Shown piece after piece: positions 10,594 through 48,580 of a stretch of DNA of 64,000 nt. Made by a program: the position numbers and the translations under genes. Numbering within the stretch: position 1 is the first letter of the stretch; each line of letters begins with the position of its first letter. The notes under the pieces are model-generated. The model was not told the origin of the DNA. It did not search any database and saw only the letters and a program-made list of their open reading frames with translations. Source of the stretch: Cognatundibacterium rivi (GTDB lineage: Bacteria; Pseudomonadota; Gammaproteobacteria; Burkholderiales; Burkholderiaceae_D); the NCBI RefSeq assembly GCF_018139565.1, contig NZ_JAGSPK010000008.1:1-64000 (forward strand). The letters are read 5' to 3'.

Positions 10594-10690
10594 CATACTC
10601 CAGGGGAGTATGTAGATCTGTGCGGCGAAAGTCTTTTTAAATAAACGACAAATTAAGAATAAATGCAGATACTCCCTTAAAAACGGGAGT
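10594..10690 (-). repeat. Dispersed GGGAGTAT repeat, copy 1 (between mlaE and mlaD)
   Basis: The copy begins with a perfect 8-bp palindrome arm pair, CATACTCC (10594-10601) and GGAGTATG (10605-10612). It ends with GATACTCCC (10668-10676), which can pair with GGGAGT at 10685-10690. Read on the minus strand it resembles copies 3 and 5: GGGAGTATC, then a TTATTCT word, then the palindrome. It lies inside the Mla operon 23 bp upstream of mlaD and could change the downstream message level. Confidence 0.75.
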
Positions 10691-10712
10691 TTGAAATAGG
10701 TAAGGATTGATG

Positions 10713-11189
10713 ATGCAAAAAAAATCTCTGGACTTCTGGGTTGGACTTTTTGTTTTACTTGGTGCAGCCGCTTTACTATTTCTGGCATTGAAAGCTGGCA
10801 ATATGAGTTCGCTTTCACTAGAGAAAACGTATGAAGTGGTAACGCGTTTTGACAATATCGGCGGACTTAAACCGCGCGCTGCAGTAAAAAGCGCAGGTGT
10901 TGTCGTTGGGCGGGTTTCGGAAGTCAGATTTGACGACAAAACCTTTCAGGCAACGGTGATACTGCAATTAGAAACACGCTATAAGTTTCCAAAAGATACA
11001 TCTGCCAAGATTCTGACGGCAGGATTGTTGGGTGAGCAATATATTGGCCTGGAAGCCGGTGGTGATACCGCGAATCTGGTTGCCGGTGACAGGATAAAAA
11101 TGACGCAGTCGGCGGTCGTACTGGAAAATCTGATCAGTCAGTTTCTTTTCAGTAAAGCCGCAGACAGCAGTGCGGAAGAGAAAAAATGA
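10713..11189 (+). CDS. mlaD: Phospholipid-binding MCE-domain protein MlaD
   Basis: Periplasmic substrate-binding subunit of the Mla complex, anchored by one N-terminal membrane helix (about residues 9-27). The MCE domain follows; its hexamer forms the lipid channel. It has 158 residues from the chosen start. TTG 10707, ATG 10710 and ATG 10713 are all in frame. ATG 10713 is preferred because AGGA at 10703-10706 then lies 6 nt upstream. The stop codon overlaps the mlaA start by 4 nt. Confidence 0.94.
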   Translation: MQKKSLDFWVGLFVLLGAAALLFLALKAGNMSSLSLEKTYEVVTRFDNIGGLKPRAAVKSAGVVVGRVSEVRFDDKTFQATVILQLETRYKFPKDTSAKILTAGLLGEQYIGLEAGGDTANLVAGDRIKMTQSAVVLENLISQFLFSKAADSSAEEKK

Positions 11190-11956
11190 AAAATACATTT
11201 AAGCAGTTAAACGCGCGCTTTTGTGCCGTACTGGTACTGGGCCTGACTGTGTTGCTGACAGGTTGCAGCACCGTCTCAGTTGATAAAATCAAAGATAAAG
11301 CTGATCGTACTCTGGACGTGATCAGTACAAAAACTAATATCGGCAAAAACCCACGCGACCCGCTGGAAGGGTTTAATCGCGCAATGTTCAATTTCAATGA
11401 TTCTGTTGATCAGGCGGTATTGAAACCGGTTGCGCAAACGTATCGCGATGTGACGCCATCGTTTGTTCAGACCGGTGTCGGTAACTTTTTCAGCAATATC
11501 GGCGATGTCTGGAATGCGGTCAACAATCTGTTGCAAGGTAAGGTTGCTGAAGGTAGCTCCGACGTAATGCGTTTTGCGTTTAACTCAACATTTGGTCTGG
11601 CTGGTTTACTTGATATCGCTTCGCCGGCAGGTCTGCCTAAGCATCGCGAAGATTTTGGTCAGACACTGGGTCGCTGGGGTGTCCGTTCGGGGCCTTATCT
11701 GGTTTTGCCACTATTGGGTTCGTCTACCGTGCGTGATGCGTTGGCAACACCGGTCGATATGAAAGGTAATTTGTGGTCGTATAAAGAGCCTGTTTATATT
11801 CGCAATATCGGTACTGGTGTGCGTCTGGTCGATGCCCGCGCATCTGTGCTGGACGCCGGTTCGCTGATAGAGGAAGCTGCTCTGGATAAATATGTGTTTA
11901 TCCGCGATGCTTATTTGCAGCGTCGCGCCAGTCAGATCGCTCCGGAAGAGGATTAA
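11186..11956 (+). CDS. mlaA: Outer-membrane lipoprotein MlaA (VacJ)
   Basis: Outer-membrane lipoprotein that removes misplaced phospholipids from the outer leaflet and hands them to MlaC. It has 256 residues. The lipoprotein signal ends in LLTGC with Cys27 as the lipidated residue. The MlaA core is recognisable from DPLEGFNRAMFNFND onward. It overlaps mlaD by 4 nt. Having mlaA inside the transport operon is common in Burkholderiales, whereas E. coli encodes it elsewhere. Confidence 0.95.
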   Translation: MKNTFKQLNARFCAVLVLGLTVLLTGCSTVSVDKIKDKADRTLDVISTKTNIGKNPRDPLEGFNRAMFNFNDSVDQAVLKPVAQTYRDVTPSFVQTGVGNFFSNIGDVWNAVNNLLQGKVAEGSSDVMRFAFNSTFGLAGLLDIASPAGLPKHREDFGQTLGRWGVRSGPYLVLPLLGSSTVRDALATPVDMKGNLWSYKEPVYIRNIGTGVRLVDARASVLDAGSLIEEAALDKYVFIRDAYLQRRASQIAPEED

Positions 11957-12078
11957 ATAGTGCAGCTTAATACCGCAGGGATTTGTAAAACAATATAACA
12001 ACAGTCAACCCATCAACACCCCGATGAGTTAACTGGCGACACAGACGTCGCCATCTGATGGATATGAAGGATAAAGAA

Positions 12079-12729
12079 ATGAAAACAATCATGACCCGAT
12101 TTTTATTAACGATGTTTGCCACTCTGGCATTTGCCAACAGCGGTTTTGCCGCCGCTGCTGCACAGGAAGCGCCTGATCAGTTGGTCAAACGCATCAGTCT
12201 TGAAATTATTGATCTGGCGAAAGCGGACAAAGAAATTCAGGCAGGCAATCAAAAGCGTGTTTATGACCTGGTCGACAGCAAAATTTTGCCTTACATCGAT
12301 TTTCAGCGCATGACTTCGCTGGCGGCTGGTAAAAGCTGGAGAGATGCGACTCCGGAACAGCAAAAGCAACTGATTAACGAATTTCGCACCTTGTTGGTAT
12401 TTACTTACTCTGGCGCTATCGCTCAGATTAAAGACCAACGCGTAGAATTCAAGCCGCTTCGTGCAGCACCGGAAGATACGGAAGTCGAAGTCCGTTCGCA
12501 GATCATTCAGACCCGTGGCGAGCCTATCCAGTTAAATTACCGTCTTGAAAAATTGCCGGCAGGCTGGAAAATTTATGACATCAACGTGCTGGGTGCATGG
12601 CTGGTAGAAACTTATAAAGGCAGTTTTTCTGCTGAAATTAGTAAGTCCGGGATTGATGGTCTGATCAAAACTCTGACTGAAAAAAACAAAAAACTCGCGT
12701 CAGCACCGATTAAAGCGGCCTCCAAATAA
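12079..12729 (+). CDS. mlaC: Periplasmic phospholipid chaperone MlaC
   Basis: Soluble periplasmic carrier that ferries phospholipids between MlaA and MlaFEDB (Ttg2D/toluene-tolerance family). It has 216 residues with a cleavable signal peptide (MKTIMTRFLLTMFATLAFA). ATG 12079 is chosen over ATG 12058 because GAAGGA at 12066-12071 sits 7 nt before it and the signal peptide then has normal length. The gap to mlaA is about 120 bp and holds no obvious terminator. Confidence 0.94.
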   Translation: MKTIMTRFLLTMFATLAFANSGFAAAAAQEAPDQLVKRISLEIIDLAKADKEIQAGNQKRVYDLVDSKILPYIDFQRMTSLAAGKSWRDATPEQQKQLINEFRTLLVFTYSGAIAQIKDQRVEFKPLRAAPEDTEVEVRSQIIQTRGEPIQLNYRLEKLPAGWKIYDINVLGAWLVETYKGSFSAEISKSGIDGLIKTLTEKNKKLASAPIKAASK

Positions 12730-12748
12730 GTCTGATAAAGGATTTATT

Positions 12749-13024
12749 GTGTACAAACTAGCTGGCGAACTTTCTCAACAGAATGCCCGTACCGCGCTGG
12801 CAGCGGGGAATGCTGCTATATCGCAAGGGCAGTCTGACTTCGACTTGTCCGGTCTGGAGCGGATAGATTCTGCTGCTGTTGCCGTCATGATTGAATGGCA
12901 ACGGCAGGCGCTGGAAAAAAAACAAACGCTGCAATTTCATGCGTTGCCAGCCAGTCTGATCAGTCTGATCAGACTTTATGGTCTGAGTGAGCAGTTTATT
13001 ACCCCATCCTCCGAGCGACATTGA
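12749..13024 (+). CDS. mlaB: STAS-domain subunit MlaB
   Basis: Small cytoplasmic STAS protein that binds MlaF and is needed for assembly and activity of the Mla transporter. It has 91 residues and starts with GTG at 12749 behind an AAAGGA site. The STAS core DLSGLERIDSAAVAVMIEW is present, including the Ser/Ala stretch on the loop that contacts the ATPase. It is the last gene of the Mla set. Confidence 0.9.
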   Translation: MYKLAGELSQQNARTALAAGNAAISQGQSDFDLSGLERIDSAAVAVMIEWQRQALEKKQTLQFHALPASLISLIRLYGLSEQFITPSSERH

Positions 13025-13087
13025 CGCTCACCCCGGGAATGCGTCGGTTTCCTGCACGCAGTTTCAGCCTCCACGCTGAAAATCCCC

Positions 13088-13093
13088 TATAAT
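13088..13093 (+). promoter_or_regulatory. Candidate -10 box upstream of the ABC-2 exporter genes
   Basis: A perfect TATAAT lies 80 bp before the ATPase start in the mlaB-exporter gap. No good -35 hexamer is seen at 17 bp, so the call is tentative. Confidence 0.3.
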
Positions 13094-13173
13094 CAAGGGT
13101 TCGCCCAGCGGGTGAACTCTTAGATTTTCTCCGTATCCGATTTCTCTTACGCACGTAAGTGCAAGCATGCCCG

Positions 13174-14094
13174 ATGGCCGCCATACAAATTAGTAATATT
13201 CAAAAACGCTACCAGTCTTTGCAAGCGCTGGGTGGCGTATCACTTTCTATCGAAGAGGGTGAGTTTTTCGGCCTGCTCGGGCCAAATGGTGCGGGTAAAA
13301 CGACATTGATTTCTATCATCGCTGGTCTGAACCGCGCCGATGCCGGGAATGTTACGGTGCAAGGGCATGACGTTGTCAGCGATTACAGAAATGCGCGCAG
13401 AAATCTGGGCGTCGTACCGCAAGAATTAGTCTTTGATCCATTTTTTACTGTACGCGAAACCTTGCGTATGCAGTCCGGTTATTTTGGACTCAAGAATAAT
13501 GATAAATGGATAGACGAGGTCATGGAAAATCTCGATCTGACCAATAAGGCCGATACGAATATGCGCGCTTTGTCGGGTGGGATGAAGCGCCGCGTGCTGG
13601 TTGCGCAGGCGCTTGTGCACAAGCCGCCAGTGATTGTGCTTGATGAGCCAACCGCAGGCGTTGACGTTGAATTGCGTCAGACCTTGTGGCAATTCATTGC
13701 GCGTCTGAACCGCGAAGGTCACACAATCGTCTTGACCACACATTACCTTGAAGAAGCGCAGGCTCTTTGTAATCGTATTGCAATGCTGAAATTGGGGAAG
13801 GTTGTTGCCCTCGACAGCACCGCCGCGCTGATTAAGCGTATCTCAGGATCACAACTGCGGGTAACACTGGCCGCATCCGGTAATACGACTTTACCTGTAA
13901 CGTTACGCGACAAGATTATCAGTCATGAAACCCTCGCCGATCCACGTCAGTTTGCTTTACGTGTCACCGACTATGGTCAGGTTGAAGGAATCTTAGGTGA
14001 GCTCCGTATGGGCGGATGTGTGATTGAGGATATGCAATTGCTGCAAGCCGATCTGGAAGATGTCTTCCTGCAAATTATGGAGGGCAAGCAATGA
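13174..14094 (+). CDS. ABC-2 type exporter ATP-binding protein (YadG-like)
   Basis: Cytoplasmic ATPase of a two-component exporter. It has 306 residues from ATG 13174; GTG at 13159 is an alternative start with no better ribosome-binding site. Walker A is GPNGAGKTT (36-44), the signature is LSGGMKRR and Walker B is VIVLDEPTAGVD. The C-terminal region resembles DrrA/YadG proteins. It overlaps the permease gene by 4 nt (ATGA). The substrate is unknown. Its place directly after the Mla operon is typical of Burkholderiales and hints at an envelope role, which is inference. Confidence 0.9.
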   Translation: MAAIQISNIQKRYQSLQALGGVSLSIEEGEFFGLLGPNGAGKTTLISIIAGLNRADAGNVTVQGHDVVSDYRNARRNLGVVPQELVFDPFFTVRETLRMQSGYFGLKNNDKWIDEVMENLDLTNKADTNMRALSGGMKRRVLVAQALVHKPPVIVLDEPTAGVDVELRQTLWQFIARLNREGHTIVLTTHYLEEAQALCNRIAMLKLGKVVALDSTAALIKRISGSQLRVTLAASGNTTLPVTLRDKIISHETLADPRQFALRVTDYGQVEGILGELRMGGCVIEDMQLLQADLEDVFLQIMEGKQ

Positions 14095-14855
14095 GTAATA
14101 TGACCGGTTTTAACACCCTGTTTTACAAAGAAGTATTGCGCTTCTGGAAAGTCGCAACGCAAACGATCACGGCACCTATCATGACCGCGTTGTTGTATTT
14201 GCTGATTTTCGGCCATGTGCTGGATGCGCATGTGCAGGTGTATCCGGGAGTGCGTTACACCGCGTTTCTGGTGCCAGGATTGGTGATGATGAGTGTGTTG
14301 CAAAATGCTTTTGCGAATTCATCTTCTTCACTGATACAGTCGAAGATCACCGGCAATCTGGTGTTTGTGCTGTTGCCGCCTTTATCGCACTGGGAGCTGT
14401 TCGGTGGTTATGTACTCGCGGCGATATTACGCGGCGTCACAGTCGGTGCGGGTGTTTTCGTCGTGACTGTCTGGTTCACTGACCTGCATTTTGAAGCACC
14501 GTTGTGGATTGCTCTGTTTGCTTTACTGGGCGCGGCGATGCTGGGGACGATGGGGCTGATCGCTGGCATCTGGGCAGAGAAATTCGATCAGCTGGCCGCC
14601 TTCCAGAATTTTTTAATCATGCCTGCGACGTTTTTATCGGGTGTGTTTTATTCGATTCATTCCTTACCGCCATTCTGGCAAACCGTGTCGCACTTTAATC
14701 CATTCTTTTACATGATAGATGGCTTCCGGTTTGGCTTCTTTGGTAAATCAGACGTGGCACCGTTGTATAGTTTAGCGATTGTTTCTGTTTTCTTTGTGTT
14801 GCTGTCAGCGATTGCGGTGCAGATGCTGAAGCGTGGTTATAAGTTGCGTGATTGA
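14091..14855 (+). CDS. ABC-2 type exporter permease (YadH-like)
   Basis: Membrane partner of the preceding ATPase. It has 254 residues with about six hydrophobic segments. It shows the ABC-2 family pattern, including the conserved stretch near NFLIMPATFLSGVFYSI and a following FNPFFYMIDGFR. Translationally coupled to the ATPase gene by the ATGA overlap. The exported compound cannot be inferred from sequence. Confidence 0.9.
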   Translation: MSNMTGFNTLFYKEVLRFWKVATQTITAPIMTALLYLLIFGHVLDAHVQVYPGVRYTAFLVPGLVMMSVLQNAFANSSSSLIQSKITGNLVFVLLPPLSHWELFGGYVLAAILRGVTVGAGVFVVTVWFTDLHFEAPLWIALFALLGAAMLGTMGLIAGIWAEKFDQLAAFQNFLIMPATFLSGVFYSIHSLPPFWQTVSHFNPFFYMIDGFRFGFFGKSDVAPLYSLAIVSVFFVLLSAIAVQMLKRGYKLRD

Positions 14856-14915
14856 TTGATGCCAGGCCTCAGTCCTTCAGCGTGTTACTAATTGAGTTTG
14901 AAAGAGATATACGCC

Positions 14916-15152
14916 GTGTTTCCTACCCCTGAACAAATTAAAAACTACATTGCTGCCGGTCTTGAATGCAGCCATCTGGAAGTTGAAGGTGATGGTCAGC
15001 ACTTTAATGCCGTCATCGTTTCCACCGCCTTTGCTGGCAAACGTCCGATACAACGTCACCAGATCGTCTACGCGGTTCTGGGTGATCGTATGCGTGAAGA
15101 AATTCACGCTCTATCGATGAAAACACTGACACCAGAAGAGTACCAGGCATAA
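14916..15152 (+). CDS. ibaG: BolA/IbaG family iron-sulfur protein
   Basis: Small BolA-type protein that usually works with a monothiol glutaredoxin in iron-sulfur cluster handling; in E. coli ibaG also lies beside murA and responds to acid stress. It has 78 residues from GTG 14916, which has AAAGAGA 8 nt upstream. TTG 14892 would add eight residues. The BolA core is seen around [14 protein letters not shown], and the C-terminal [13 protein letters not shown] is typical. Its stop codon overlaps the murA start by one base. Monothiol grxD is present elsewhere in this window. Confidence 0.88.
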
Positions 15153-16402
15153 TGGATAAATTACTGATTACCGGCGGTCATCGCCTGAACGGAGATATCG
15201 TCATCTCCGGCGCAAAAAATGCCGCGTTACCGATTCTGTGCGCAGGGTTGCTGAGTGCCGATGATGTCGTGCTGAGCAATGTTCCGTCGCTGCAGGATGT
15301 CAACACCATGCTGAAATTGCTGCGCCAGATGGGCCTACGCGTCACGCAGGAAAACGGCATTACCACGCTCAATGGACAGGGTATCGATAAACTCGAAGCG
15401 CCTTACGACATGGTGAAAACTATGCGTGCCTCGATTCTGGTACTCGGCCCTTTGCTGGCGCGTTTTGGTGAAGCGAAAGTCTCGTTGCCGGGAGGTTGTG
15501 CAATTGGTTCGCGCCCGGTGGATCAGCATATCAAAGGCCTGCGCGCGATGGGCGCCGAGATCACGATCGAGGCGGGTTATATCCATGCCAAAGCCAAGCG
15601 ACTCAAAGGTGCGCGTATCGTGACCGATATGATTACCGTCACCGGTACCGAAAATCTGCTGATGGCAGCAACGCTGGCGGAAGGTGAGACTGTGCTGGAA
15701 AACGCGGCACGCGAACCGGAGGTCACCGATCTGGCGAATCTGCTGGTGGCAATGGGAGCGAAGATCGAAGGCATAGGCACTGATAGACTGGTGATACAGG
15801 GCTGCGATAGCCTGCATGGCGCGGAACATACCGTGATCGCAGATCGTATTGAAACCGCGACTTTCCTGTGCGCAGTAGCGGCAACCGGTGGCGATATCAC
15901 CTTAAAAAATACCCGCAGCGATATTCTGGATGTGGCTCTCGATAAGTTACGTGAAGCAGGCGTTGTTCTGACAACCGGCCCCGACTGGATACGTGCGCAA
16001 ATGAGCAGCCGTCCGAAAGCGGTCAGTTTCCGTACGACTGAATACCCAGGTTTCCCTACTGATATGCAGGCGCAATTCATGGCGCTCGATTGTGTCGCAT
16101 CCGGCAGCAGTCGTGTCACCGAAACGATTTTTGAAAATCGTTTCATGCATGTGCAGGAGATGAATCGTCTCGGCGCGAAAATTGAAATCGATGGGCATAC
16201 TGCAATCATCAATGGCGTCGATAAACTGGTCGGCGCGCCAGTCATGGCGACCGATTTACGTGCTTCCGCATCGCTGGTGATTGCCGGGATGGCAGCCGAA
16301 GGCGAAACACTGATAGACCGGATTTATCACCTCGACCGTGGTTACGACCGCATGGAAGTGAAACTGTCGGCGGTCGGCGCACAAATACAAAGGCTCAAGT
16401 AA
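15152..16402 (+). CDS. murA: UDP-N-acetylglucosamine 1-carboxyvinyltransferase
   Basis: First committed step of peptidoglycan synthesis: transfers enolpyruvate from PEP to UDP-GlcNAc in the cytoplasm. It has 416 residues, normal length. The catalytic Cys116 lies in GGCAIGSRP, so the enzyme should be fosfomycin-sensitive by that criterion. The N-terminal SGAKNAALP motif and the C-terminal [12 protein letters not shown] motif are present. It overlaps ibaG and hisG by one base at each end (TAATG junctions), so all three should be co-transcribed and coupled. Confidence 0.97.
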
Positions 16403-17055
16403 TGACTGCACAACTCACTCTGGCTTTATCCAAAGGGCGGATTTTTGAAGAAACCCTGCCGCTGCTGGAAGCGGCCGGCATTCGCGTGACTGAAGACCCG
16501 GAAAAATCCCGTAAGCTGATCCTGGCAACGAATGATCCGGGTGTGCGCGTCATCATCGTCCGTGCTTCAGATGTGCCAACGTATGTCCAGTATGGCGCTG
16601 CTGATTTCGGCGTGGCCGGTAAAGACGTGTTGCACGAACATGGTGGCGAAGGTTTGTATCAGCCGATTGATCTGAACATTGCCAAATGCCGCATGTCGGT
16701 GGCGGTCTCGGCCGGATTTGATTATCAAAGCGCTGTACATCAGGGTGCGCGTTTGCGCGTGGCAACCAAGTACACCGAAACTGCGCGCGAGCATTTTGCC
16801 AGCAAGGGTGTGCACGTTGATCTGATCAAACTGTATGGTTCTATGGAGCTCGCGCCGCTGGTTGGTTTGTCGGATGCGATTGTCGATCTGGTCAGCACCG
16901 GCAGCACTCTGCGCGCGAATAATCTGGTTGAAGTCGAACACATCATGGATATTTCTTCGCGTCTGGTGGTGAATCAGGCGGCATTGAAATTGAAGCGTGA
17001 ACGTTTGCAACCGATACTTGAAGCTTTCGAGCGCGCCACCAGTTTAAAAGCATAA
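16402..17055 (+). CDS. hisG: ATP phosphoribosyltransferase, short form
   Basis: First enzyme of histidine synthesis: joins ATP and PRPP. It has 217 residues, which is the short form lacking the C-terminal regulatory domain. Short HisG needs the HisZ regulatory subunit for activity and feedback control, and hisZ is not in this window. The core motifs [16 protein letters not shown] and [14 protein letters not shown] are clear. It overlaps murA by one base and starts the his gene series. Confidence 0.96.
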
Positions 17056-17070
17056 TTAAAGAGAATGAGC

Positions 17071-18393
17071 ATGGCATCCCCCGCATCCCTGATTACCCGG
17101 CTGGACTCCACCGAGGCTGATTTTTCCGCAAAGCTTTCTGCCTTGCTGGCTTTTGAAGCGAGTGAAGACGAAGCGATAGATCGTGCTGCTGCACAAATTT
17201 TAGTCAGCGTGAAAACGCATGGCGATAGTGCCGTCCTGGAAGCGACAAATCGTTTTGATCGCCTCAGTGCCGACAGTGTCGCGGCGCTGGAGTTGTCGCA
17301 GCAAGAGATGCAGGCAGCGCTGAATTCACTCAGCGCTGAACGTCGCCATGCGCTGGAAACGGCGGCGCAGCGGGTGCGTGCGTATCACGAAATACAAAAG
17401 AAAGAATGCGGCTCGGAAGGCTTCAGCTATACCGAAGCCGATGGGACTGTGCTCGGTCAGAAGGTCACGCCACTCGATCGCGTCGGTATTTATGTACCGG
17501 GCGGTAAGGCCGCTTATCCTTCATCGGTGCTGATGAATGCGATTCCGGCCAAGGTCGCCGGTGTGCAGGAAATCATCATGGTGGTGCCGACGCCTGATGG
17601 CGTCAAAAATCCGCTGGTGCTGGCGGCCGCGGCGATTGCCGGTGTCGACAGAGTATTCACCATCGGCGGCGCGCAGGCAGTCGGTGCGCTGGCGTATGGC
17701 ACTGCGACGATTCCGCAAGTCGATAAGATAGTCGGGCCGGGTAATGCTTATGTCGCGGCGGCAAAACGCCGTGTGTTCGGCACAGTCGGTATCGACATGA
17801 TTGCTGGCCCATCAGAAATTCTGGTCTTGTGCGATGGCACGACGAATCCGGACTGGGTTGCGATGGATTTATTTTCGCAGGCAGAACATGACGAGCTTGC
17901 ACAGTCGATTTTATTGTGCCCCGATGCCGCGTATATCGAAGCAGTACAGGCCAGCATCGCCCGCTTGCTGCCGGAAATGCCACGTCACGAAGTCATCCGC
18001 ACTTCGCTGGCGAATCGCGGTGCGCTGATTAAAGTGCGTGATATGGACGAGGCCTGTGCGATTGCCAACAGCATCGCTGCCGAACACCTGGAAATCTCGG
18101 CTGAACAACCACAGCAATGGGCAGATAAAATCCGCCACGCTGGCGCGATGTTCCTCGGTCGTTATTCGTCGGAAGCCTTAGGCGATTACTGCGCGGGCCC
18201 GAATCATGTGTTGCCGACGTCCCGCACGGCGCGCTTTTCATCGCCGCTGGGTGTGTATGATTTCCAGAAGCGTTCTTCCATGATCCATGTCAGTGAGCAA
18301 GGTGCGCAGACGCTGGGTAAAGTGGCTGCCGAACTCGCTTATGGCGAAGGTTTGCAAGCCCACGCGCGTAGTGCTGAATTCCGCCTGAAGTGA
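17071..18393 (+). CDS. hisD: Histidinol dehydrogenase
   Basis: Last two steps of histidine synthesis, oxidising histidinol to histidine with NAD and zinc. It has 440 residues from ATG 17071, which has AGAGA 6 nt upstream; ATG 17065 is two codons earlier and too close to that site. Family motifs include [31 protein letters not shown], and a C-terminal [19 protein letters not shown] with the zinc-binding His. It follows hisG after 15 bp. Confidence 0.96.
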
Positions 18394-18414
18394 TTTTCAA
18401 TATGAATTCCTAGC

Positions 18415-19179
18415 ATGGCAGCCGATTGGCGAAATCAGATATTTTGTGAGGACGCGCTGCAAGGGCTGGCGCGTCTGCCCGATGCCAGCGTTGATCTGTT
18501 GCTGGCCGACCCGCCGTATGGTCTGGGCAAGGATTACGGCAACGATTCCGACAAAATGGAGGCCGCTGCCTATCTTGAATGGATGACGGAATGGGTCGAT
18601 CTGGCCTTACCCAAGCTCAAAGCGAATGGCAGCCTGTATATTTTTCTGACCTGGCGCTATTCGCCGGAAGTGTTTGTGATGCTGAAACAGCGCATGAGCA
18701 TGATGAATGAAATTATCTGGGACCGGCGTGTGCCATCGATGGGCGGAACGGTACGTAAATATTCTTCTGTGCACGACACGATAGGTTTCTTTGTCAAAGC
18801 GCGGGATTACTATTTTGATCTGGATGCAATCCGCATTCCGTATGATGCGGCCACCAAAAAGGCCCGCAGCCGCAAGATTTTTGAAGGCGCCAAATGGCTG
18901 GAGCTGGGCTTTAACCCCAAAGATGTGTGGAGTGTTTCGCGTCTGCATCGTGAGCACGCCGAGCGTGAAGAGCACCCGACACAAAAGCCCTTAGAAATTA
19001 TCGAACGCATGATCAAGGCGTCCTGCCCACCCGGCGGCGTTGTCCTTGATCCATTCATGGGCAGCGGCACCACCGCTGTCGCCGCACAACGTTGCGGGCG
19101 CGATTTCGTTGGTTTTGAACTGAATCCTGATTATTGCGAGATGATACAAAAACGCCTCGCTCAGGCGCATCCCGTATAG
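18415..19179 (+). CDS. Site-specific DNA methyltransferase (beta-type, N6-adenine or N4-cytosine)
   Basis: Transfers a methyl group from S-adenosylmethionine to an amino group in DNA. It has 254 residues. The catalytic motif IV, DPPYG, is at 32-36, and the SAM-binding motif I, DPFMGSGTT, is near the C-terminus at 212-220; this circular order is the beta class (CcrM/YhdJ-like). No restriction endonuclease gene is adjacent, so it is an orphan enzyme. It sits between hisD (21 bp upstream) and hisC on the same strand, an unexpected place for a DNA modification gene. Target sequence unknown. YhdJ-like identity is likely but not certain. Confidence 0.9.
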   Translation: MAADWRNQIFCEDALQGLARLPDASVDLLLADPPYGLGKDYGNDSDKMEAAAYLEWMTEWVDLALPKLKANGSLYIFLTWRYSPEVFVMLKQRMSMMNEIIWDRRVPSMGGTVRKYSSVHDTIGFFVKARDYYFDLDAIRIPYDAATKKARSRKIFEGAKWLELGFNPKDVWSVSRLHREHAEREEHPTQKPLEIIERMIKASCPPGGVVLDPFMGSGTTAVAAQRCGRDFVGFELNPDYCEMIQKRLAQAHPV

Positions 19180-19198
19180 CTCTCCGGCATGCAGTTTT

Positions 19199-19283
19199 GG
19201 GGGAGTATATGAACAACATCTCGTATAACGTAATTAAATAGCGGATGTTTCGGTGTTAATCGAGCATACTGCCTGGAGTATAT
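19199..19283 (+). repeat. Dispersed GGGAGTAT repeat, copy 2 (upstream of hisC)
   Basis: GGGGGAGTATAT at 19199-19210 and ATACTGCCTGGAGTAT at 19266-19281 bracket the copy. The two GAGTAT boxes are 73 bp apart. A CGGTGTTAAT word precedes the second palindrome, as in copies 4 and 5. The terminal GGAG (19275-19278) lies 6 nt before the hisC GTG, so the repeat supplies the hisC ribosome-binding site. Confidence 0.75.
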
Positions 19284-19284
19284 A

Positions 19285-20361
19285 GTGAGTATCACGGATA
19301 TTATCCGCCCGGAAATCAGCAGTTTAGCGGCTTACCACGTGCCTGATGCGGCAGGTTTGCTGAAACTCGATGCGATGGAAAATCCTTATCTGTTGCCAGC
19401 GGAAATGCAGCAGGCGCTGGCGCAGCATCTGGCACAAGTGGCGCTGAATCGCTATCCGGTGCCGTCCTATTCCGGTCTGAAACAACTGATCGCTGACAAG
19501 CTGGGCGTGCCCGCGGATCGCGAGATTGTGCTCGGCAATGGTTCCGATGAATTGATTGCGATGATCTCAGTGGCATGCGCCAGGCCGGGCGCAAAAGTGC
19601 TGGCACCGGTACCCGGATTTGTGATGTATGCGATGTCAGCGAAATTTGCCGGACTGGAATTCATCGGTGTGCCGCTACAGGCCGATCTGACACTGGATAC
19701 GGCAGCAATGCTGGCTGCCATCCGCACGCACCGCCCGGCGATAACGTATCTTGCGTATCCGAATAATCCTACCGGCACTTTGTATGACGCTGACGATATC
19801 GTTGCCATTGCGCACGCCGTTGGCGACAGCGGTGTGGTGGTGGTGGATGAAGCGTATCAGCCTTTTGCCCCGACGAGTTTCATGCCGCGTCTGGCGGAAT
19901 TCGATAATCTGGTGGTCATGCGCACCGTATCGAAATTAGGCCTGGCTGGCATCCGGCTCGGCTACATGGCTGGCAATAATGCGCTGATGCATGAGTTTGA
20001 AAAGGTGCGCCCACCCTATAACATCAATGTGCTGACGCAGGCGGCGGCAGAATTTGTGTTGCAAAGGGTTGAAGTGCTGGATGCACAGGCAGCCGAATTA
20101 CGTGCGCAGCGTAGCCAATTGGCAATGGCATTAAGTGCCTTGCCCGGCGTGCAGGTTTTCCCCTCCGCTGCAAATTTCCTGCTGATCCGTGTGGCGAATG
20201 CTGAACAAGTCTTTGCTAAATTGTTGGATCACAAAATTTTAGTTAAAAATGTAGGTAAAATGCACTCTCTGCTTGAGAACTGTCTGCGTATCACCGTCAG
20301 TACTCCGGAAGAAAATGCACTTTTTATGGCTGCGCTTGCAGCATCTCTGACATCAAAATGA
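19285..20361 (+). CDS. hisC: Histidinol-phosphate aminotransferase
   Basis: PLP enzyme that converts imidazole-acetol phosphate to histidinol phosphate. It has 358 residues and a class I/II aminotransferase fold. The PLP lysine lies in [10 protein letters not shown], and YPNNPTGT and DEAYQPF are the conserved cofactor contacts. The start is GTG at 19285, served by a GGAG that belongs to a dispersed repeat. The stop overlaps the hisB start by 4 nt. The 105-bp gap upstream is the largest in the first half of the his operon. Confidence 0.95.
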
Positions 20362-20975: not shown

Positions 20976-20996
20976 TCTTATGAGCTGTATCCCGGT

Positions 20997-21012
20997 CCCG
21001 GCGTCAGCCGGG
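20997..21012 (+). other. GC-rich hairpin just before hisH
   Basis: CCCGGC and GCCGGG pair around a GTCA loop, ending 8 nt before the hisH ATG. It occupies the ribosome-binding region and could lower hisH translation. Regulatory effect is inference. Confidence 0.4.
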
Positions 21013-21020
21013 CGATCATT

Positions 21021-21659: not shown

Positions 21660-21784
21660 GTCCAGCGGAACCAGTGTGATCGCCGTGTTGTGCGGCTGCA
21701 CCGGATAGTCTGATTTTCTGTTGTACTTTCGTTTCTCTTATTGTCTTTTTTGTCTGATACCGACACCTTAATTTCTTTAACATC

Positions 21785-36362: not shown

Positions 36363-36435
36363 GGGGAGTATCCGCAAAAAAACGCTTATTCTCAACATAA
36401 AACAAGGGGCTTAAAAAATACTGGGGGGAGTATAT
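36363..36435 (+). repeat. Dispersed GGGAGTAT repeat, copy 3 (after the S9 peptidase gene)
   Basis: GGGGAGTAT (36363-36371), ACGCTTATTCTC (36382-36393) and ATACTGGGGGGAGTATAT (36418-36435). The GAGTAT boxes are 62 bp apart. The 12-mer is identical to that of copy 5 and lies at the same 16-bp offset from the first box. No gene starts just downstream of this copy. Confidence 0.8.
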
Positions 36436-36596: not shown

Positions 36597-36625
36597 AAAA
36601 AAGCCGCCACACGCAGGTGGCGGCT
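36597..36625 (-). terminator. Terminator of the phytase-like lipoprotein gene
   Basis: A 9-bp stem (AGCCGCCAC with GTGGCGGCT) with a 6-nt loop is followed, on the minus strand, by six T. It lies 91 bp after the stop codon. Confidence 0.85.
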
Positions 36626-36715
36626 CGTCTCAGATCAGGTGCCGCGTAACGCTATCGCAACGCCGTTGAAGTCACATCAAAATACGTCACAGTAACGGCG
36701 CTATGCCCGAGTGCA

Positions 36716-42038: not shown

Positions 42039-42267
42039 AATGTATCTCCAAACAATCAAGTTGTTACAATTATATTTCACTTGATTTGTGAATAATAAAT
42101 ATTTGTCCTGTTTATTGTTTTAAATAAAGTTATGTACATTTTTAATCGAGTCAATTTTATGTAACTCAAAGACTAGAAATGTTTGCGTGCTCGCATGAAT
42201 GAACGAACGTGTGAGCCGATAATACTAGGCGTAGTTGGTCATTCTCAGTTTCAGAAAAAGTTTGAAA

Positions 42268-42858
42268 TTACTCTTTTAAACCTTGCCAGCGCGGTGTCAG
42301 CTCGTGCGGTAGGGCGAACATATCGAGTACGCGGCCGACTGTGTGGTCGACCATTTCCTGTATCGATTGCGGACGGTGGTAGAAACCGGGGAGCGGGGGG
42401 AAGATGATGCCGCCCATTTCAGTCACGGCCGTCATATTGCGCAGATGGGCGAGATTGAACGGTGTTTCCCGCACCATTAATATCAGACGACGGCGTTCTT
42501 TCAGCACGACATCGGCAGCGCGCGTGATCAGATTATCTGACATGCCATGCGCCACCGAGGCCAGTGTTTTCATCGAGCACGGTGCAACCACCATGCCGTC
42601 AGATTGAAACGAGCCGCTGGCAATGCTGGCACCGACATCGCGTACATGATGCACGACATCCGCGAAGGCCTCGACATCCTTGCGCTTCATGTCGAGTTCC
42701 TGATGCAGATTCAAGACTCCGGCTTCAGAAATCAGCAGATGCGTTTCGACGTCCGGGTTTGCCTGTAATACCTGCAGCAAGCGCACACCATACACAGCGC
42801 CGGTCGCGCCGGTGATGGCGATGATCAGACGTTGTTTCGGCGGTGCGCTGGTGCTCAT
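42268..42858 (-). CDS. ubiX: Flavin prenyltransferase UbiX
   Basis: Makes prenylated FMN, the cofactor of UbiD decarboxylases in ubiquinone synthesis and aromatic acid metabolism. It has 196 residues from ATG 42858 (a GTG lies one codon earlier). The N-terminal IAITGATGAVYGVRLL FMN site, VVAPCSMKTLASVAHG, and the VRETPFNLAHLRNM motif are all present. It follows grxD after 11 bp on the same strand. No ubiD is in the window. Confidence 0.95.
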   Translation of the reverse strand: MSTSAPPKQRLIIAITGATGAVYGVRLLQVLQANPDVETHLLISEAGVLNLHQELDMKRKDVEAFADVVHHVRDVGASIASGSFQSDGMVVAPCSMKTLASVAHGMSDNLITRAADVVLKERRRLILMVRETPFNLAHLRNMTAVTEMGGIIFPPLPGFYHRPQSIQEMVDHTVGRVLDMFALPHELTPRWQGLKE

Positions 42859-42869
42859 CACGACGGTGC

Positions 42870-43181
42870 TCAGTCTTTCAACAAGGTTTGCAGTTCGCCG
42901 TTTTCAAACATCTCATTCATGATGTCAGAGCCGCCGATGAATTCGCCTTTGATGTACAGCTGCGGTACGGTTGGCCAGTTAGAAAAATCTTTGATGCCCT
43001 GACGCACTTCCGGGTCTTCCAGCACATTCACAGTCACCAGATTCTGCACGCCGCAGGCTTTCAATACCTGCACCGCACGACCGGAAAATCCGCATTGCGG
43101 GAATTGGGCAGTCCCTTTCATGAACAACACGACAGGGTTTTGGGTAACGGTTTCTTTGATCCAGCTTTGAACGTCGCTCAT
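42870..43181 (-). CDS. grxD: Monothiol glutaredoxin (Grx4/GrxD)
   Basis: Carries [2Fe-2S] clusters and usually partners BolA-type proteins such as the IbaG encoded in this window. It has 103 residues. The active site is CGFS (30-33), not the dithiol [13 protein letters not shown] and the [16 protein letters not shown]-type segment ([14 protein letters not shown]) are typical. An AAGGA ribosome-binding site precedes ATG 43181. Repeat copy 4 lies 107 bp upstream. Confidence 0.96.
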
Positions 43182-43287
43182 GGCTTTTCCTTGGTTAATA
43201 ATGTGCCGCCATTATAAAGGAAACTCCGGCAGCGCTCCCGCGCGCCAACAGCGTGACTGCAGGCGCTGTTTTGTACTAGAGGAATAA

Positions 43288-43371
43288 ATATACTCCCCCG
43301 GAGTATATGTTTAACACCCAATGAATATAAGGAGATTAGTATGTTTTTGTAAAAATATGGGGGGAGTATAT
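43288..43371 (-). repeat. Dispersed GGGAGTAT repeat, copy 4 (upstream of grxD)
   Basis: A perfect 9-bp palindrome, ATATACTCC and GGAGTATAT (43288-43296, 43300-43308), is followed by AACACCC (43313-43319) and, 63 bp on, by GGGGGGAGTATAT (43359-43371). On the minus strand it reads GGGTGTTAAACATATACT into the palindrome, almost identical to copy 5. The distal box is inverted compared with the other copies. Confidence 0.78.
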
Positions 43372-43455
43372 GGTTTTAACCGGGATTGACCTAACTCAAG
43401 GATTTCTAATCCGGCTCGCACAATACCGACTGAGCGGGGGGCGTTTGAAGCGGCG

Positions 43456-43959
43456 CTAAGACCCCGCGCCGACAGAACCAACGCCAGCGCTGTGCAGTAA
43501 TAATACTTTTCCGTTGCGACGGACCAGCGTATCCGTGCTGCGCGAGCGTATGTGCATGAGTGTTCCGGCAACGTCCAGCGAACTGCTGACATCCACCGTG
43601 GCAGTTTTGCCATCCGGCGACAGCGCGATGCTGTGTATCGTGTATTGAGAATCCAGTTGCAGCATGCCGCCCATCTTCTCGCCCAGCTTTTCCCAGGTCG
43701 CATACAAGTCATGATAGGCGTCGCAGGCTTGCTGCTTGTTCTGGTTCACCGTTTGTGTGTTTCCGGCTGTGTTGACGCTGCCGGTAGAGTGAAAATCCGG
43801 CGCCAGCAGCGCGCATATCGCCTCAGGCTGACGCTGTAACGTCGCGATTTCAAGATCGCGATAAAAACCGTTGACATGTCCGTCCGACAGCTTGCGCCCA
43901 CCGATGAAATACCACCAGCCGCCAGCCACAATCAGCACAAGGAATAATACTTTTTTCAT
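43456..43959 (-). CDS. Small exported NTF2-like protein of unknown function
   Basis: A protein of 167 residues with an N-terminal membrane anchor or signal (MKKVLFLVLIVAGGWWYFIGG). The rest looks like a single cystatin/NTF2-like alpha+beta domain (FYRDLEIATLQRQPEAICALL, ending in strands such as TATVDVSSSLDV and STDTLVRRNGK), similar in style to SnoaL/DUF4440 proteins. I do not recognise a named family. It stands between grxD and the HEPN-type gene without operon partners. Confidence 0.65.
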   Translation of the reverse strand: MKKVLFLVLIVAGGWWYFIGGRKLSDGHVNGFYRDLEIATLQRQPEAICALLAPDFHSTGSVNTAGNTQTVNQNKQQACDAYHDLYATWEKLGEKMGGMLQLDSQYTIHSIALSPDGKTATVDVSSSLDVAGTLMHIRSRSTDTLVRRNGKVLLLHSAGVGSVGAGS

Positions 43960-44236
43960 TTATGTATGCATCCGGAAATCAGGGTTATAACGCCAACTTC
44001 CGTGGATGGGGCAGCGGCGATGAGCAAGATGGTGCGCCACAACGACGACTCGCTGCACGGATATGTTAAATGCATTCGCAAGGTGCGCTGACAGAAAAAA
44101 TGGTGCATGAAACGTACTCTGCGTTTGCATTAAAATGCTCTAGTATCTTTTGCTGTTGCCGTTAGAAGTCGCAGAAACATAACGCCAGAGCTAGTCGAGA
44201 ACGATGCTGGCCATGATTGCACGATTAAGTGATCAG

Positions 44237-45601
44237 TTAGACGGTTTCGTCAGTAAGGGTGGCTGCAACGAACTCGTTTACGGACTTGGATTCATCCAGT
44301 TTATCTTTAATGAGTGTTGCTGCCGCCATTTCGTTCGCGGTGGTGAACTCGATGGCTTTCGACCTCAAGGTAGGAACGTTTGCAAATTTGGCGCTGACCT
44401 CGGCCTTTGCTGACCAAGCCCCAGAGTTCGCGGCTCTTATCATTGCGACGATCAGTTGCAATGACTGCTCGCTAGTGAGTATTTCCCCGAGAGCACCATC
44501 TAGCGCCTCAACAGAGTTTGAGAAAGAGTTGGCCGTAGCGAAGTCGGAAGATCCAGCCTTCGAGATAAGTATCGGCAGGTAGATGGGGAGGAGGCTTGGT
44601 TTGTCCTTGACGAGTTTTACAACAAACTCAGAGTGGGCTCTTTTCTTAAATAGTGCTTCGACTTCTGGCTTGAACATTTCCAGGAATTCAGACTCTGAAA
44701 TGGCCTCCGCAAGAGATATGAGCGCGGATGTTGGATGAATCAAATTTGTTTCACTGAGAGTACTTGTAATCTCAGATATCTTTTTTGCCAGAATTGCTCG
44801 TACGCGTTCGACGGGAGTACCGCTCAGGCCAGAAATTAACTTTCCATTGGCTGATAGTGCTTGAATGATCACGTCCTCGTAATCGGAGTTATCTGCCTTT
44901 GATGCAATCAACTTGGTTTGCAGTGCGACATTAGCTGGTAGCTTGTCGAGCTTAGATAGACCGATCAAAAAATAGCTCGAATTTTTCTTTATTGAACCAT
45001 CAGGTGATGTGATTGCTGCAGCCATTTTTGTCACGAGCTGAGGCATCGCTTCATCATGAAGGTTAGTCAGCTCGTCTCTGACTACATTTCTGATATCTAC
45101 GATAGACGTGCTTGGAAAGAAATTGCTGTTCTTTAACCTTGTTACGAGTTCATCGACCAACTGAGTGGTGGAGAGTATGGGTTTTGAAAGAAAACGATCA
45201 ATGGTTTCGAAGAAGACAAATCTTGCTTCCTCAGGTGATGGCTTGTGACCTGATGGGTGCGCAGACTTGTTACGTAGGGTTCGGAGGGTTGTTAGAAATG
45301 ATGAGTCGAGACCGGAAATAAAACTTTTGGATGTTAGTTGATCTATAAGGTAGCTTTCGTAAACATCTTGGTCAGATTTCTTCTTTGTGGCTTCGGTAAA
45401 TATTGACTTCGCTGCCGTATTTACGTTTCCCAACTCATCCAGTTTTGCAAGTAAGTCGTCGAATAAAGCGATATAACTAAGAACTAAGGTACCACGGTAG
45501 GCTCCGGCCATATAACAACCCATTGCTTCACGCATGTAGTCGCGGATGTCGGTTCCAGGAATCCTGGATAGTATCTCTTCCATATCAGTAAGATGTGCCA
45601 A
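44237..45601 (-). CDS. HEPN-domain protein with Rx4H motif, function unknown
   Basis: A cytoplasmic protein of 454 residues, no signal peptide or membrane segment. Residues 20-60 (DYMREAMGCYMAGAYRGTLV) look like the first helices of HEPN domains of the abortive-infection/DUF4145 type. R110-NKSA-H115 fits the Rx4-6H motif that marks HEPN RNases. Residues 165-454 are mostly helical and not recognised. Genes on both sides are unrelated and separated by 250-360 bp, so it is a single-gene unit with no visible antitoxin. It could be a defence RNase or a non-catalytic HEPN protein. The family guess is moderate; the function is inference. Confidence 0.6.
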   Translation of the reverse strand: MAHLTDMEEILSRIPGTDIRDYMREAMGCYMAGAYRGTLVLSYIALFDDLLAKLDELGNVNTAAKSIFTEATKKKSDQDVYESYLIDQLTSKSFISGLDSSFLTTLRTLRNKSAHPSGHKPSPEEARFVFFETIDRFLSKPILSTTQLVDELVTRLKNSNFFPSTSIVDIRNVVRDELTNLHDEAMPQLVTKMAAAITSPDGSIKKNSSYFLIGLSKLDKLPANVALQTKLIASKADNSDYEDVIIQALSANGKLISGLSGTPVERVRAILAKKISEITSTLSETNLIHPTSALISLAEAISESEFLEMFKPEVEALFKKRAHSEFVVKLVKDKPSLLPIYLPILISKAGSSDFATANSFSNSVEALDGALGEILTSEQSLQLIVAMIRAANSGAWSAKAEVSAKFANVPTLRSKAIEFTTANEMAAATLIKDKLDESKSVNEFVAATLTDETV

Positions 45602-45964
45602 TGTGATTTCTTTCGTTGTAGGTTTAAACGGTCTGACTTCTATTTAATTTGCAAAAATGTAGCTTAACTTGTAATGTTAAAAAGACAATTTTATTCAAAT
45701 GCCTTGAAAACCTCATGGAGTCTTGTTGTATCTGGTTCTGCTGAACGTAAAATGAGTTTAACCAAACAGACACAAACATCACTTCCTCGACATCATCAAA
45801 ACCGCGTTGATTGAATCAGGTGCAGGAAGGTTTGCGTTATAAGTTCAGGCAGTCACGATTCAGCGATGTGTAATCGCACACAGCATGGCGCAAAAAAACA
45901 CCCCGGTAAAAACCGGGGCGCTTAATTATTTTACTTCGGTGTTTTTTTCGCAGAATTGTTAATC
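45602..45964. other. Intergenic region between the HEPN gene and tex
   Basis: The region of 363 bp holds the promoter of the minus-strand HEPN gene and, near 45.9 kb, the terminator of tex. Nothing else is evident; it is AT-rich next to the HEPN gene. Confidence 0.45.
45892..45918 (-). terminator. Intrinsic terminator after tex
   Basis: On the minus strand CCCCGGT pairs with ACCGGGG around a 4-nt loop and is followed by TG and seven T. Confidence 0.88.
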
Positions 45965-48316
45965 TCAACCACGTAATTTCGCAAACGCTGCTGCCATCGC
46001 GTTGCCTGCGGGGGCGGCTTCTTGTTTGCGTTGTTGCTGGTGCTGGTTCAGGCGTTTGGCGTCGTTGCGGTCGCCGCGTTGTTCCGGTTTGCTGCCGGGT
46101 TGCGGTGCGCTGTCGGTGAGGCGCATGGTGAGGGCGATGCGCTGGCGTTTGACGTCAACTTCCATCACTTTGACTTTCACCACCTGACCGGCTTTGACGA
46201 CGGTGTGCGGGTCTTTGACAAAGGTGTTCGACAGTGCGGAAATGTGTACCAGGCCATCCTGATGCACGCCGATATCGACAAACGCGCCGAACGCGGCGAC
46301 GTTGGTGACGACGCCTTCTAGAATCATATCGGGCTGCAAATCTTTGATGTCTTCCACGCCGTCTTTAAAGGTGGCGGTGGTGAATTCAGGGCGCGGATCG
46401 CGGCCCGGTTTTTCCAGCTCTTTGATGATGTCGGTGATGGTCGGCACACCGAATTTTTCATCGGCGTATTTGGCCGCGTTCAGCGATTTCAATAGCCCGC
46501 TGTCGCCGATGACGCCTTTTACATCTTTCTTGATATCGGCCAGAATTTTTTCGACCAGCGGATACGATTCCGGGTGAACTGCGGATGCATCGAGTGGATT
46601 GCTGCCATTCATCACGCGCAAAAATCCGGCGGCTTGTTCAAATGTTTTGTCACCGAGGCGCGGTACTGCGCGCAGATCGGCGCGTGAACTGAACATGCCT
46701 TTGGCATCGCGGAAATTAACGATGCTTTGCGCGACGCTGGCCGATAAGCCGGACACCCGCGCCAGCAAAGGCGCAGAGGCGGTATTCACATCAACACCAA
46801 CCGCATTCACGCAGTCTTCGACCACCGCATCGAGCGAGCGTGCCAGCTGGGTCTGGCTGACATCATGCTGATACTGACCAACGCCGATGGATTTTGGATC
46901 GATCTTCACCAGCTCGGCCAGCGGGTCTTGCAGACGACGTGCAATCGAGACCGCACCACGGATGGACACATCCAGATCCGGCAATTCTTTCGAGGCGAAT
47001 TCTGAAGCGGAATACACCGATGCACCGGCTTCAGAGACGACGATTTTGGTCAGCTTGAGTTCTGGTTTGAGTTTGATTAAATCCTGCGCCAGTTTGTCGG
47101 TTTCGCGTGAGGCGGTGCCGTTACCAATCGAAATTAATGACACCTGATATTTTTCTGCGAGTTTCGCCAGCGTATGCAGCGAACCATCCCAGTCGTTACG
47201 CGGCTGATGCGGGTAAATCGTCGCGTGTTCCATTACCTTGCCGGTCGCATCGACAATCGCGACTTTCACGCCGGTACGCAAGCCAGGATCGAGGCCCATC
47301 GTGGCCCGTGGCCCGGCTGGTGCTGCCAGCAATAAATCTTTGAGGTTGCGTGCAAACACGTTGATGGCTTCGATTTCTGCACTCTCGCGCAGCTTGCCCA
47401 TCAGCTCGGTTTCCAGATGCATGAAGACTTTGACGCGCCATGCCCAGCGCACGGTATCGGCCAGCCATTTATCGGCTGGGCGATCTTTTTGGCTGACGCC
47501 GAAACGTGCGGCAATGCGGCTTTCACATGGGTTCAGCGGCGCATCCCATTTTGGTTTTTCTTCTTCGCTGTCGAGCCGCAAAGTGACGGTCAGCATTTCT
47601 TCGCGGCGACCACGGAACAAGGCCAGTGCGCGGTGCGATGGAATGGTGCCCAGGGTTTCTGAGTAATCGAAATAATCGGCAAATTTTTCGCCGGCATCTT
47701 CTTTGCCTGCCACGACTTTGGATTCGACGATGCCGTGGTCGTTCAGATATTCGCGCAGCGCTTGCAACAGGCTCGCATCTTCGGCAAAGCGTTCCATCAG
47801 AATCTGACGTGCGCCATCGAGTGCCGCTTTGGTGTCAGGCACGCCTGGGTTGTCGCCGTTGTCGGTGCTGAACGCGGGTTTCAGATAATTGGCGGCTTCG
47901 GTTTCTGGCGTCAGCATCGGGTCGGCCAGCAAGGCATCGGCCAGCGGCAGCAAACCTGCTTCGACGGCGATCTGCGCTTTGGTGCGGCGTTTCGGTTTAT
48001 ACGGCAGATATAAATCTTCGAGCCGGGTTTTGTCTTCGGCGTGGGTAATCGCATCAAGCAAGGCCGGCGTCATCTTGCCTTGTTCATCAATCGAGGCGAT
48101 GATCGCGGCGCGGCGGTCTTCGAGTTCACGCAGATAACGCAGACGTTCTTCGAGCAGACGCAATTGCGTATCATCGAGGCCGCCGGTAACTTCTTTACGG
48201 TAACGGGCGATAAACGGTACGGTCGCGCCTTCATCCAGCAAGGCAACAGCAGCCGCTACCTGTATCGGTTTGGCGGCGAGTTCTACGGCGAGTCTTTGTT
48301 CAATCGAAGGCAGCAT
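45965..48316 (-). CDS. tex: RNA-binding transcription accessory protein Tex
   Basis: Conserved nucleic-acid-binding protein linked to transcription and virulence-gene expression. It has 783 residues. The Tex N-terminal domain ([16 protein letters not shown]) is followed by a YqgF/RNase H-like domain ([18 protein letters not shown]), helix-hairpin-helix motifs, and a C-terminal S1 RNA-binding domain ([26 protein letters not shown]). A basic Gln-rich tail ends the protein. Single gene with its own terminator. Confidence 0.96.
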
Positions 48317-48506
48317 AAATCCAGAATCCAGACATTAAAAAAGCAATGAAGGCGCAGATGATACGCAATTTGCAGCGTTGCGCCAGTCTTGACAGTCTTT
48401 CTGACTGCGGTTAATAGTCGGCCGGGTGGCGCGGTGTAATGACGGCGATCTGTAGAAAATACAGGCCTGCAGCGGTGCAGAAATCCCGCTCAAAAAAGGA
48501 AAAAAT

Positions 48507-48580
48507 GGGGAGTATGTGGCGATTTACGCTTATTCTCTCAATGAAATAAAGGGTGTTTACATATACTGGGGGGAGTATTT
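48507..48580 (+). repeat. Dispersed GGGAGTAT repeat, copy 5 (upstream of the alpha/beta hydrolase)
   Basis: GGGGAGTAT (48507-48515), ACGCTTATTCTC (48526-48537), GGGTGTTTAC (48551-48560) and ATACTGGGGGGAGTAT (48563-48578). The boxes are 63 bp apart. The end of the repeat lies 5 bp before the hydrolase ATG, and its G-run doubles as the ribosome-binding site. Confidence 0.8.

Follow-up and report, generated by a model that had tools for sequence, protein, structure and literature searches.

To our knowledge, proteins of the CsoR/RcnR family (DUF156, PF02583) are each known from one or few promoters, sensing metals, formaldehyde or sulfur species. The analysed stretch of DNA (64,000 nucleotides of Cognatundibacterium rivi, contig NZ_JAGSPK010000008.1, positions 1 to 64,000; hereafter the window) carries five copies of a short element composed of the palindrome ATACT-N6-AGTAT (box 1) and a half-box (box 2), which reads ATACTCCCC or, in the same position, its mirror GGGGAGTAT, and this element recurs in at least 150 copies in the genome, as against one or few promoters for the described regulators. 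In the available portions of the sources, the RcnR site of Escherichia coli reads TACT-G6-N-AGTA, with tandem type-1 sites, and tandem sites are known for both RcnR and FrmR (PMC5146963, PMC3902906), their centres being 19 bp apart for RcnR and 31 bp for FrmR (PMC5146963). Box 1 has the same arms and G/C tract as that RcnR site, whereas the centres of boxes 1 and 2 lie 62 or 73 bp apart. Judging from sequence evidence, we consider it fairly probable that a CsoR/RcnR-type protein has been repurposed and that the elements are its paired operators, distributed over the chromosome and serving an architectural or insulating function.

Several dispersed repeats are also comparable. The Correia elements and dRS3 repeats of Neisseria, which are miniature inverted-repeat transposable elements (MITEs), are short, intergenic, present in many copies and equipped with inverted boxes; the boxes described here differ in being helically phased and in matching a repressor operator, and neither a target duplication nor a transposase was found with them. 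The RIB elements of E. coli, reportedly described by Boccard and Prentki in 1993 (as listed in PMC12306157), are reported to bind IHF at the 3' ends of transcription units. They resemble our element in being repeats scattered at the ends of genes and occupied by an architectural protein (such binding being predicted here), but the implied protein belongs to the CsoR/RcnR family and the sequence is not known to be related. The REP, BIME and REPIN repeats, with their RAYT proteins, are alike in their more than 100 intergenic palindromic copies and 3'-end bias. According to the accessible part of the source, REP elements carry a GT(A/G)G head (PMC2817692), whereas here AAAT precedes box 1, the alignment contains no GTAG or GTGG head and no RAYT association was seen. 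No known repeat family fitted, in line with the first-pass annotation of the window, which had not recognised one.

Across the 3,917,442 bases of the genome, the palindrome ATACT-N5..8-AGTAT occurs at 150 places versus 3 for the reversed pattern, and the exact sequence ATACTGGGGGGAGTAT 64 times versus 0, the control being the reversed pattern rather than shuffled intergenic DNA. The excess of such sites that the first-pass annotation had called for is thus present, and the five sites with their palindromes were all found where they had been placed. Within the window, matches to ATACT-N5..8-AGTAT are confined to these sites, as are all 12 occurrences of GGAGTAT. For a sequence-only profile (R1), 38 copies of the 62-bp class were aligned, window copies 3, 4 and 5 among them. 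R1 recovered at least 150 full elements (E 2e-21 to 2e-9); it scored 150 of 1334 candidates, so this number is a floor, and the 38 building copies match by construction. What had been described as a five-copy family is therefore spread over the whole chromosome. R1 scored copies 3, 4 and 5 at E 6e-21 to 9e-17 (by construction) and copies 1 and 2 weakly, at E 0.007 and 0.035, because of which the latter two are considered to have the boxes in common with the others, but not the spacer. The claim of one design for all five sites consequently holds for the boxes and fails for the spacer, since there are two spacing classes and copies 1 and 2 lack the common spacer.

With box 1 on the left, the aligned copies of this genome (G000; other G numbers denote compared genomes) follow the layout AAAT-ATACT-N6-AGTAT-(A/T-rich)-CCC-spacer core-box 2, with an almost invariant GA in the core. 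In 148 of the 150 R1-selected copies, box 2 starts either 45-47 bp after box 1 (ATACT-type, 88 copies) or 54-56 bp after it (AGTAT-type, 60 copies), and both types give the same centre spacing of approximately 62 bp. This spacing equals about six helical turns, and that of 73 bp about seven, i.e., one turn more. Among copies picked by the palindrome only in three other species, box 2 was found as expected in 65 of 68 loci (G015 29/30, G011 18/18 and G021 18/20), nearly always at 46-48 or 55-57 bp. The box 1 arms of G015 enclose a mixed tract rather than a G/C tract. The spacer cores, given as consensus by eye, are species-specific: AAGCCCTTTATTTATAAGGACATTAAGGC-like in G000, GTCCA...TGGACAATAAGG in G015, ...TGCGGAATAAGG in G011 and ...GCTGACGACAGGGC in G021. 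The core is uniform within a genome and different between species, and contains species-specific short inverted repeats in G015, G021 and G011.

A search of 43 genomes of the genus (Undibacterium) with PF02583 revealed two classes of proteins, scoring approximately 60 and 80 bits. The palindrome is enriched in 15 of these genomes, by a cut-off chosen after the counts had been seen, with a range from 27 vs 11 (G023, the weakest) to 212 vs 11 (G035); G004 (18/8), G009 (12/6), G022 (14/7) and G040 (5/2; an incomplete genome) were not called enriched. The ~60-bit class is present in 26 of the 43 genomes, comprising 15/15 enriched and 11/28 others. The ~80-bit, FrmR-like CsoR-family paralogue was considered as a ligand of the sites and judged unlikely, because just 8 of the 15 enriched genomes have it. 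The ~60-bit gene of C. rivi lies outside the window (G000:C5, ~55.2-55.5 kb) and encodes a divergent CsoR/RcnR-family protein of 104 amino acids. Box 1 ends 49-50 bp before the ATG of this gene in all 15 enriched genomes, and box 2 occupies codons 3-6, as GATACTCCCCC in 13 of them, GATACCCCCCC in G014 and GATACCCCACC in G020, where box 1 is imperfect. The gene's own pair belongs to the 73-bp class, as do window copies 1 and 2, most dispersed copies being one turn shorter. In six non-enriched carriers of the gene, box 1 was found at 21, 23, 35, 47, 48 and 59 bp, the enriched arrangement in none of them (0/6), and an exact box 2 only at 35 bp (G034) and 47 bp (G042); the carriers G019, G027, G031, G036 and G039 fall outside this comparison. 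Four further named Undibacterium-like records of the non-enriched type, not matched to genome labels, gave 35, 37, 93 and 25 bp. More distant relatives (56-67% identity) occur in Collimonas, Massilia and other Oxalobacteraceae, and only some have a box-1-like palindrome near the start. No metal-efflux partner was recognised by eye among the gene's neighbours in the locus L321.

The 104-amino-acid protein matches PF02583 with 57.8 bits (cut-off 22.8; E 1.5e-15) and its sequence resembles solved CsoR, InrS and CstR chains. An AlphaFold2 model of the Undibacterium aquatile orthologue consists of three helices (mean predicted local distance difference test score, pLDDT, 87.2), and the top 20 Foldseek hits to it are all CsoR, InrS, CstR or FrmR chains, with probabilities of 0.99-1.00 and E values of 0.009 to 0.19, none being ≤0.001. 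By sequence and model prediction, the protein has the three-helix CsoR/RcnR fold, and the candidate ligand thus matches the described regulators in family and predicted fold. At position X, Cys50 is conserved in 10 of the 11 orthologues aligned, G003 being the exception. Position Y, located from spacing and the alignment with 6ahx, is never His in these 11 but Ser (seven) or Ala (four). In the available portion of the source, His at this position is usual in CsoR/RcnR sensors (PMC5146963). The candidate also differs from the sensors in falling far below the cut-offs of all NCBIfam equivalogs (RicR 33.3 of 175, FrmR 23.7 of 133 and RcnR 20.8 of 138 bits).

An operator pair was one of three options named by the first-pass annotation (besides a REP- or MITE-like element, whose features are seen in part, and a structured RNA, for which support failed) and is the best supported, because the box is an RcnR-type site and the same phased pair stands at the start of a CsoR/RcnR-type gene that every enriched genome has. 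Each element would be a composite of two type-1-like sites of this protein family, approximately 62 or 73 bp apart and presumably on the same helix face, since the spacing corresponds to about six or seven turns. The predicted ligand is the 104-amino-acid protein, which would very probably control itself via the 73-bp pair, box 1 lying in the promoter of its gene and box 2 within codons 3-6. With a tetramer bound at each of the two sites, the intervening DNA might be held or wrapped, and this at 150 or more positions, most of them at gene 3' ends. Because copies favour such ends, we propose a chromosome-wide architectural or insulating protein rather than a local metal-responsive repressor. 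Starting from properties that were computed (the family, its architecture and spacing, its presence together with the gene, the joint absence of both from one nested clade and conservation above flanks), we infer that the protein binds the sites, that the sites of a pair act together, and what the binding is for. If true, a CsoR/RcnR member on at least 150 conserved paired sites would show that nucleoid-associated proteins can arise in a way not described before, and the ligand would explain a family of dispersed repeats in bacteria. An open-access literature search found no paper joining the CsoR family to a nucleoid-associated role and, among the titles listed, none on such dispersed sites or on this repeat, which does not establish absence from print.

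The genus would be a natural experiment in this respect, close species having gained or lost protein and sites together. In a tree based on Tex and HisC, the clade G001/G012/G037 stands beside G013 and G029 (clade of five, support 100). R1 gave 0, 0 and 1 matches in the former three, which have no ~60-bit CsoR/RcnR gene, versus 88 in G013 and 102 in G029. An R1 zero is less telling in far genomes, because the profile, made from the copies of C. rivi, misses distant spacers; G026 yielded a single R1 match despite a palindrome count of 68 vs 5. The tree, with its 35 genomes, calls for at least 8 changes of element state and 5 of the gene. In other genera, each represented by a single genome (75 in all), no count came near those of Undibacterium. 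A small palindrome excess was noticed in other genera of the family or order, in G054 (17/2), G073 (21/4) and G084 (13/3), the cores in G054 being mixed.

Conservation was assessed with G033, in which at least 109 of the 150 copies are collinear with those of C. rivi in order and orientation. When the 30 best-scoring G033 copies were taken, 29 could be aligned to a C. rivi copy, and in these pairs element identity was 93.5%, compared with 79.9% and 86.1% in the 100-bp flanks, the best-scoring choice favouring consensus-like copies. Collinearity together with conservation above the flanks calls for a function. On the simplest account, the pairs are operators of the 104-amino-acid protein that are distributed over the chromosome and maintained by selection.

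Several observations weigh against the paired-operator proposal. The 11 non-enriched genomes mentioned above carry the ~60-bit gene without enrichment of the palindrome, and two of them come close to the enriched arrangement at the gene start, G042 (47 bp, box 2 present) being only 3 bp off and G022 having box 1 at 48 bp. The gene's own 73-bp pair lacks the spacer core, and nearly all of the 150 profile copies are of the 62-bp class, on which R1 was built; the core itself, with its almost invariant GA, is not explained by the candidate protein. In a phylogeny-aware test, 2.9 independent pairs changed in the same and 0 in the opposite direction, a sample too small for significance (median p 0.25). 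Finally, in G011, G015 and G021 a neighbouring gene is shared with a C. rivi element in 10 of 48 loci, against a rough chance estimate of 8, so that most positions turn over at that distance. To account for the origin of copies and for a spacer uniform in each genome and different between species, one needs either some means of dispersal, for instance transposition or gene conversion, or another factor that is species-specific, and the spacer's genome-by-genome change across dispersed copies poses a puzzle of concerted evolution. A bolder proposal, which we hold only tentatively and would sooner doubt than back, is that a sensor that lost the usual His became a nucleoid organiser on 150-200 phased pairs, the spacer changing in concert from genome to genome as though read by a second, fast-evolving factor; a chromosome-organisation system with a species-specific code would then have been made from a metalloregulator.

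The strongest competitor, though in our estimate an unlikely one, is a selfish or domesticated MITE- or REPIN-like element, originating from a copy of the regulator's operator and spreading in several lineages, protein binding being incidental. It would account for 150 or more dispersed copies with a common spacer in one genome, for the different spacers of G000, G011, G015 and G021 and for the few positions that C. rivi shares with the latter three. The G033 copy L230 (G033:C13:307576), which is missing from the homologous place of the window, also fits such a history. However, no transposase partner was found, and inspection by eye of the open reading frames (ORFs) in four element clusters revealed none. 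Some copies have boxes that allow a reading as inverted repeats, but a clean empty site bearing a target duplication was not encountered. The collinearity with G033 and the conservation above flanks likewise argue against it, as does the identity between orthologues, which exceeds that to the nearest paralogue (median 81%) and gives, in the main, no sign of very recent copying. A RAYT/REPIN system was rejected, as Y1_Tnp, found in 42 of the 43 genus genomes whether enriched or not, does not track the elements, and the Y1_Tnp gene of the window (1593-2297) has no flanking boxes.

Some minor observations concern mobile DNA. The window gene at 1593-2297, a Y1/IS200-like (RAYT-type) transposase gene, is located just upstream of gltB, and Y1_Tnp occurs in the same neighbourhood in G033, G013 and G029. 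L230, which has a changed flank, corresponds to the window gap 53438-53616 and adjoins a stretch of approximately 1 kb that is missing from the window and includes a small additional gene. Mobile DNA as a carrier was discarded, since the eight viral contigs with the exact 16-mer showed, by eye, no second box within 85 bp on either side; a search of plasmids with copy 5 and its surroundings (1.6 kb) gave no match, which carries little weight.

Still less likely, and in our view quite improbable, is a conventional large regulon, in which the pairs are ordinary operators governing neighbouring genes on a signal. Its best arguments are that a pair stands at the start of the regulator's own gene and that, in several species, others immediately precede hisC and tex. 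At hisC, a complete or partial pair is present in 7 of 14 enriched genomes and in 0 of 16 others seen, and a pair precedes tex in 7 of 11 enriched genomes and in 0 of 19 others, G021 also having one beside tex; some of these pairs are incomplete, the G018 contig being too short for the hisC box 2 and G015 and G035 having a degenerate arm. The genomic placement points elsewhere. According to crude ORF calls, 138 of the 150 copies are intergenic (88 in co-directional, 36 in convergent and 14 in divergent gaps) and 12 lie inside ORFs, so the statement that all copies are between genes, made for the five of the window, is true of most of the family. In co-directional gaps, 63 of 88 copies are closer to the upstream stop codon than to the downstream start, and the tail orientation is independent of gene direction (45 to 43). 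Divergent gaps are the sparsest, with 0.82 copies per kb of gap versus 2.07 in convergent and 1.84 in tandem gaps, densities that are biased because the stretches were picked around elements. The genes adjacent to the window copies (lipid transport, histidine synthesis, tex and others) have, by eye, no obvious common theme.

It is very improbable that the palindrome or spacer forms a structured RNA or a transcription terminator, and this reading was rejected: the preference for gene 3' ends and the inverted repeats followed by T-rich DNA that are visible by eye in several species' spacers (e.g., GTCCA...TGGAC in G015) would suit it, but an Rfam gathering search found only tRNA and no match at the elements, the orientation is independent of transcription, and the covariation of palindrome arms proposed as a check was not detectable, RNAalifold on 38 aligned copies yielding just 5 invariant arm pairs with compensatory changes in 0/5.

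The window copies, which we regard as sites of the proposed paired operators, fall into both spacing classes, with centres approximately 73 bp apart in copies 1 and 2 and 62-63 bp apart in copies 3, 4 and 5. Copy 1, on the plus strand, lies in the gap that separates an ABC-permease (mlaE-like) gene, with its end at 10580, from the gene that follows. It comprises box 1 (palindrome ATACTCCAGGGGAGTAT, 10595..10611, found by pattern search) and box 2 (ATACTCCC, 10669..10676) of the 73-bp class, and the same pair is present in G033. Among the second-box distances first reported, that of copy 1 needs correction, as its box 2 begins 74 bp, and not 81 bp, from the palindrome start. Copy 2 runs from right to left (minus strand), with box 2 (GGGGGAGTAT on the plus strand) at 19199..19208 and box 1 (ATACTGCCTGGAGTAT, 73-bp class) at 19266..19281, which stops a few bp ahead of the GTG called as the hisC start at 19285.

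The remaining three copies are of the 62-bp class, their boxes being identified by both pattern search and R1, and contain the conserved spacer core. Copy 3 (minus strand) consists of box 2 (GGGGAGTAT on the plus strand, 36363..36371), the spacer (36372..36417) and box 1 (ATACTGGGGGGAGTAT on the plus strand, 36418..36433). Copy 5 has the same orientation, with box 2 (GGGGAGTAT on the plus strand) at 48507..48515, the spacer at 48516..48562 and box 1 (ATACTGGGGGGAGTAT on the plus strand) at 48563..48578, and lies upstream of tex (45965-48316, minus strand). The spacers of copies 3 and 5 both contain the 12-mer ACGCTTATTCTC, as originally pointed out, but this is only one variant of the conserved core. 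Copy 4 (plus strand) is composed of box 1 (ATACTCCCCCGGAGTAT, 43290..43306), the spacer (43307..43358; core ACACCCAATGAATATAAGGAGATTAG) and box 2 (GGGGGGAGTAT, 43359..43369).

The box 1 G-tract is found on the leading strand, as judged by GC skew, in 84 of 118 copies, and in 66 of 84 when only exact six-G tracts are counted; box 2 and the tail have no GC-skew strand polarity. Other intergenic runs of six or more G are on the same strand in 7 of 8 cases (a tiny control), and no box 1 flip was seen among 29 orthologous G000/G033 pairs, 28 of which count, the wrong box 1 having been matched in L231. Replication polarity as a function was set aside as a possible strand-composition bias, given the unpolarised box 2 and tail and the similar behaviour of other G runs.

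Two further loci have an unusual organisation. In the region G000:C5:62401-74635 (L071), four elements (at 64401, 67275, 69059 and 72546) in one orientation alternate with small ORFs of unknown function, in a cassette-like layout that might suggest an integron-like array. The G033 locus L232 (G033:C12:245354) combines the left flank of the copy at G000:C10:245755 with the right flank of the copy at 248245, as if recombination between direct copies had removed (or spared) approximately 2.4 kb with LysR-like and metallo-hydrolase-like genes.

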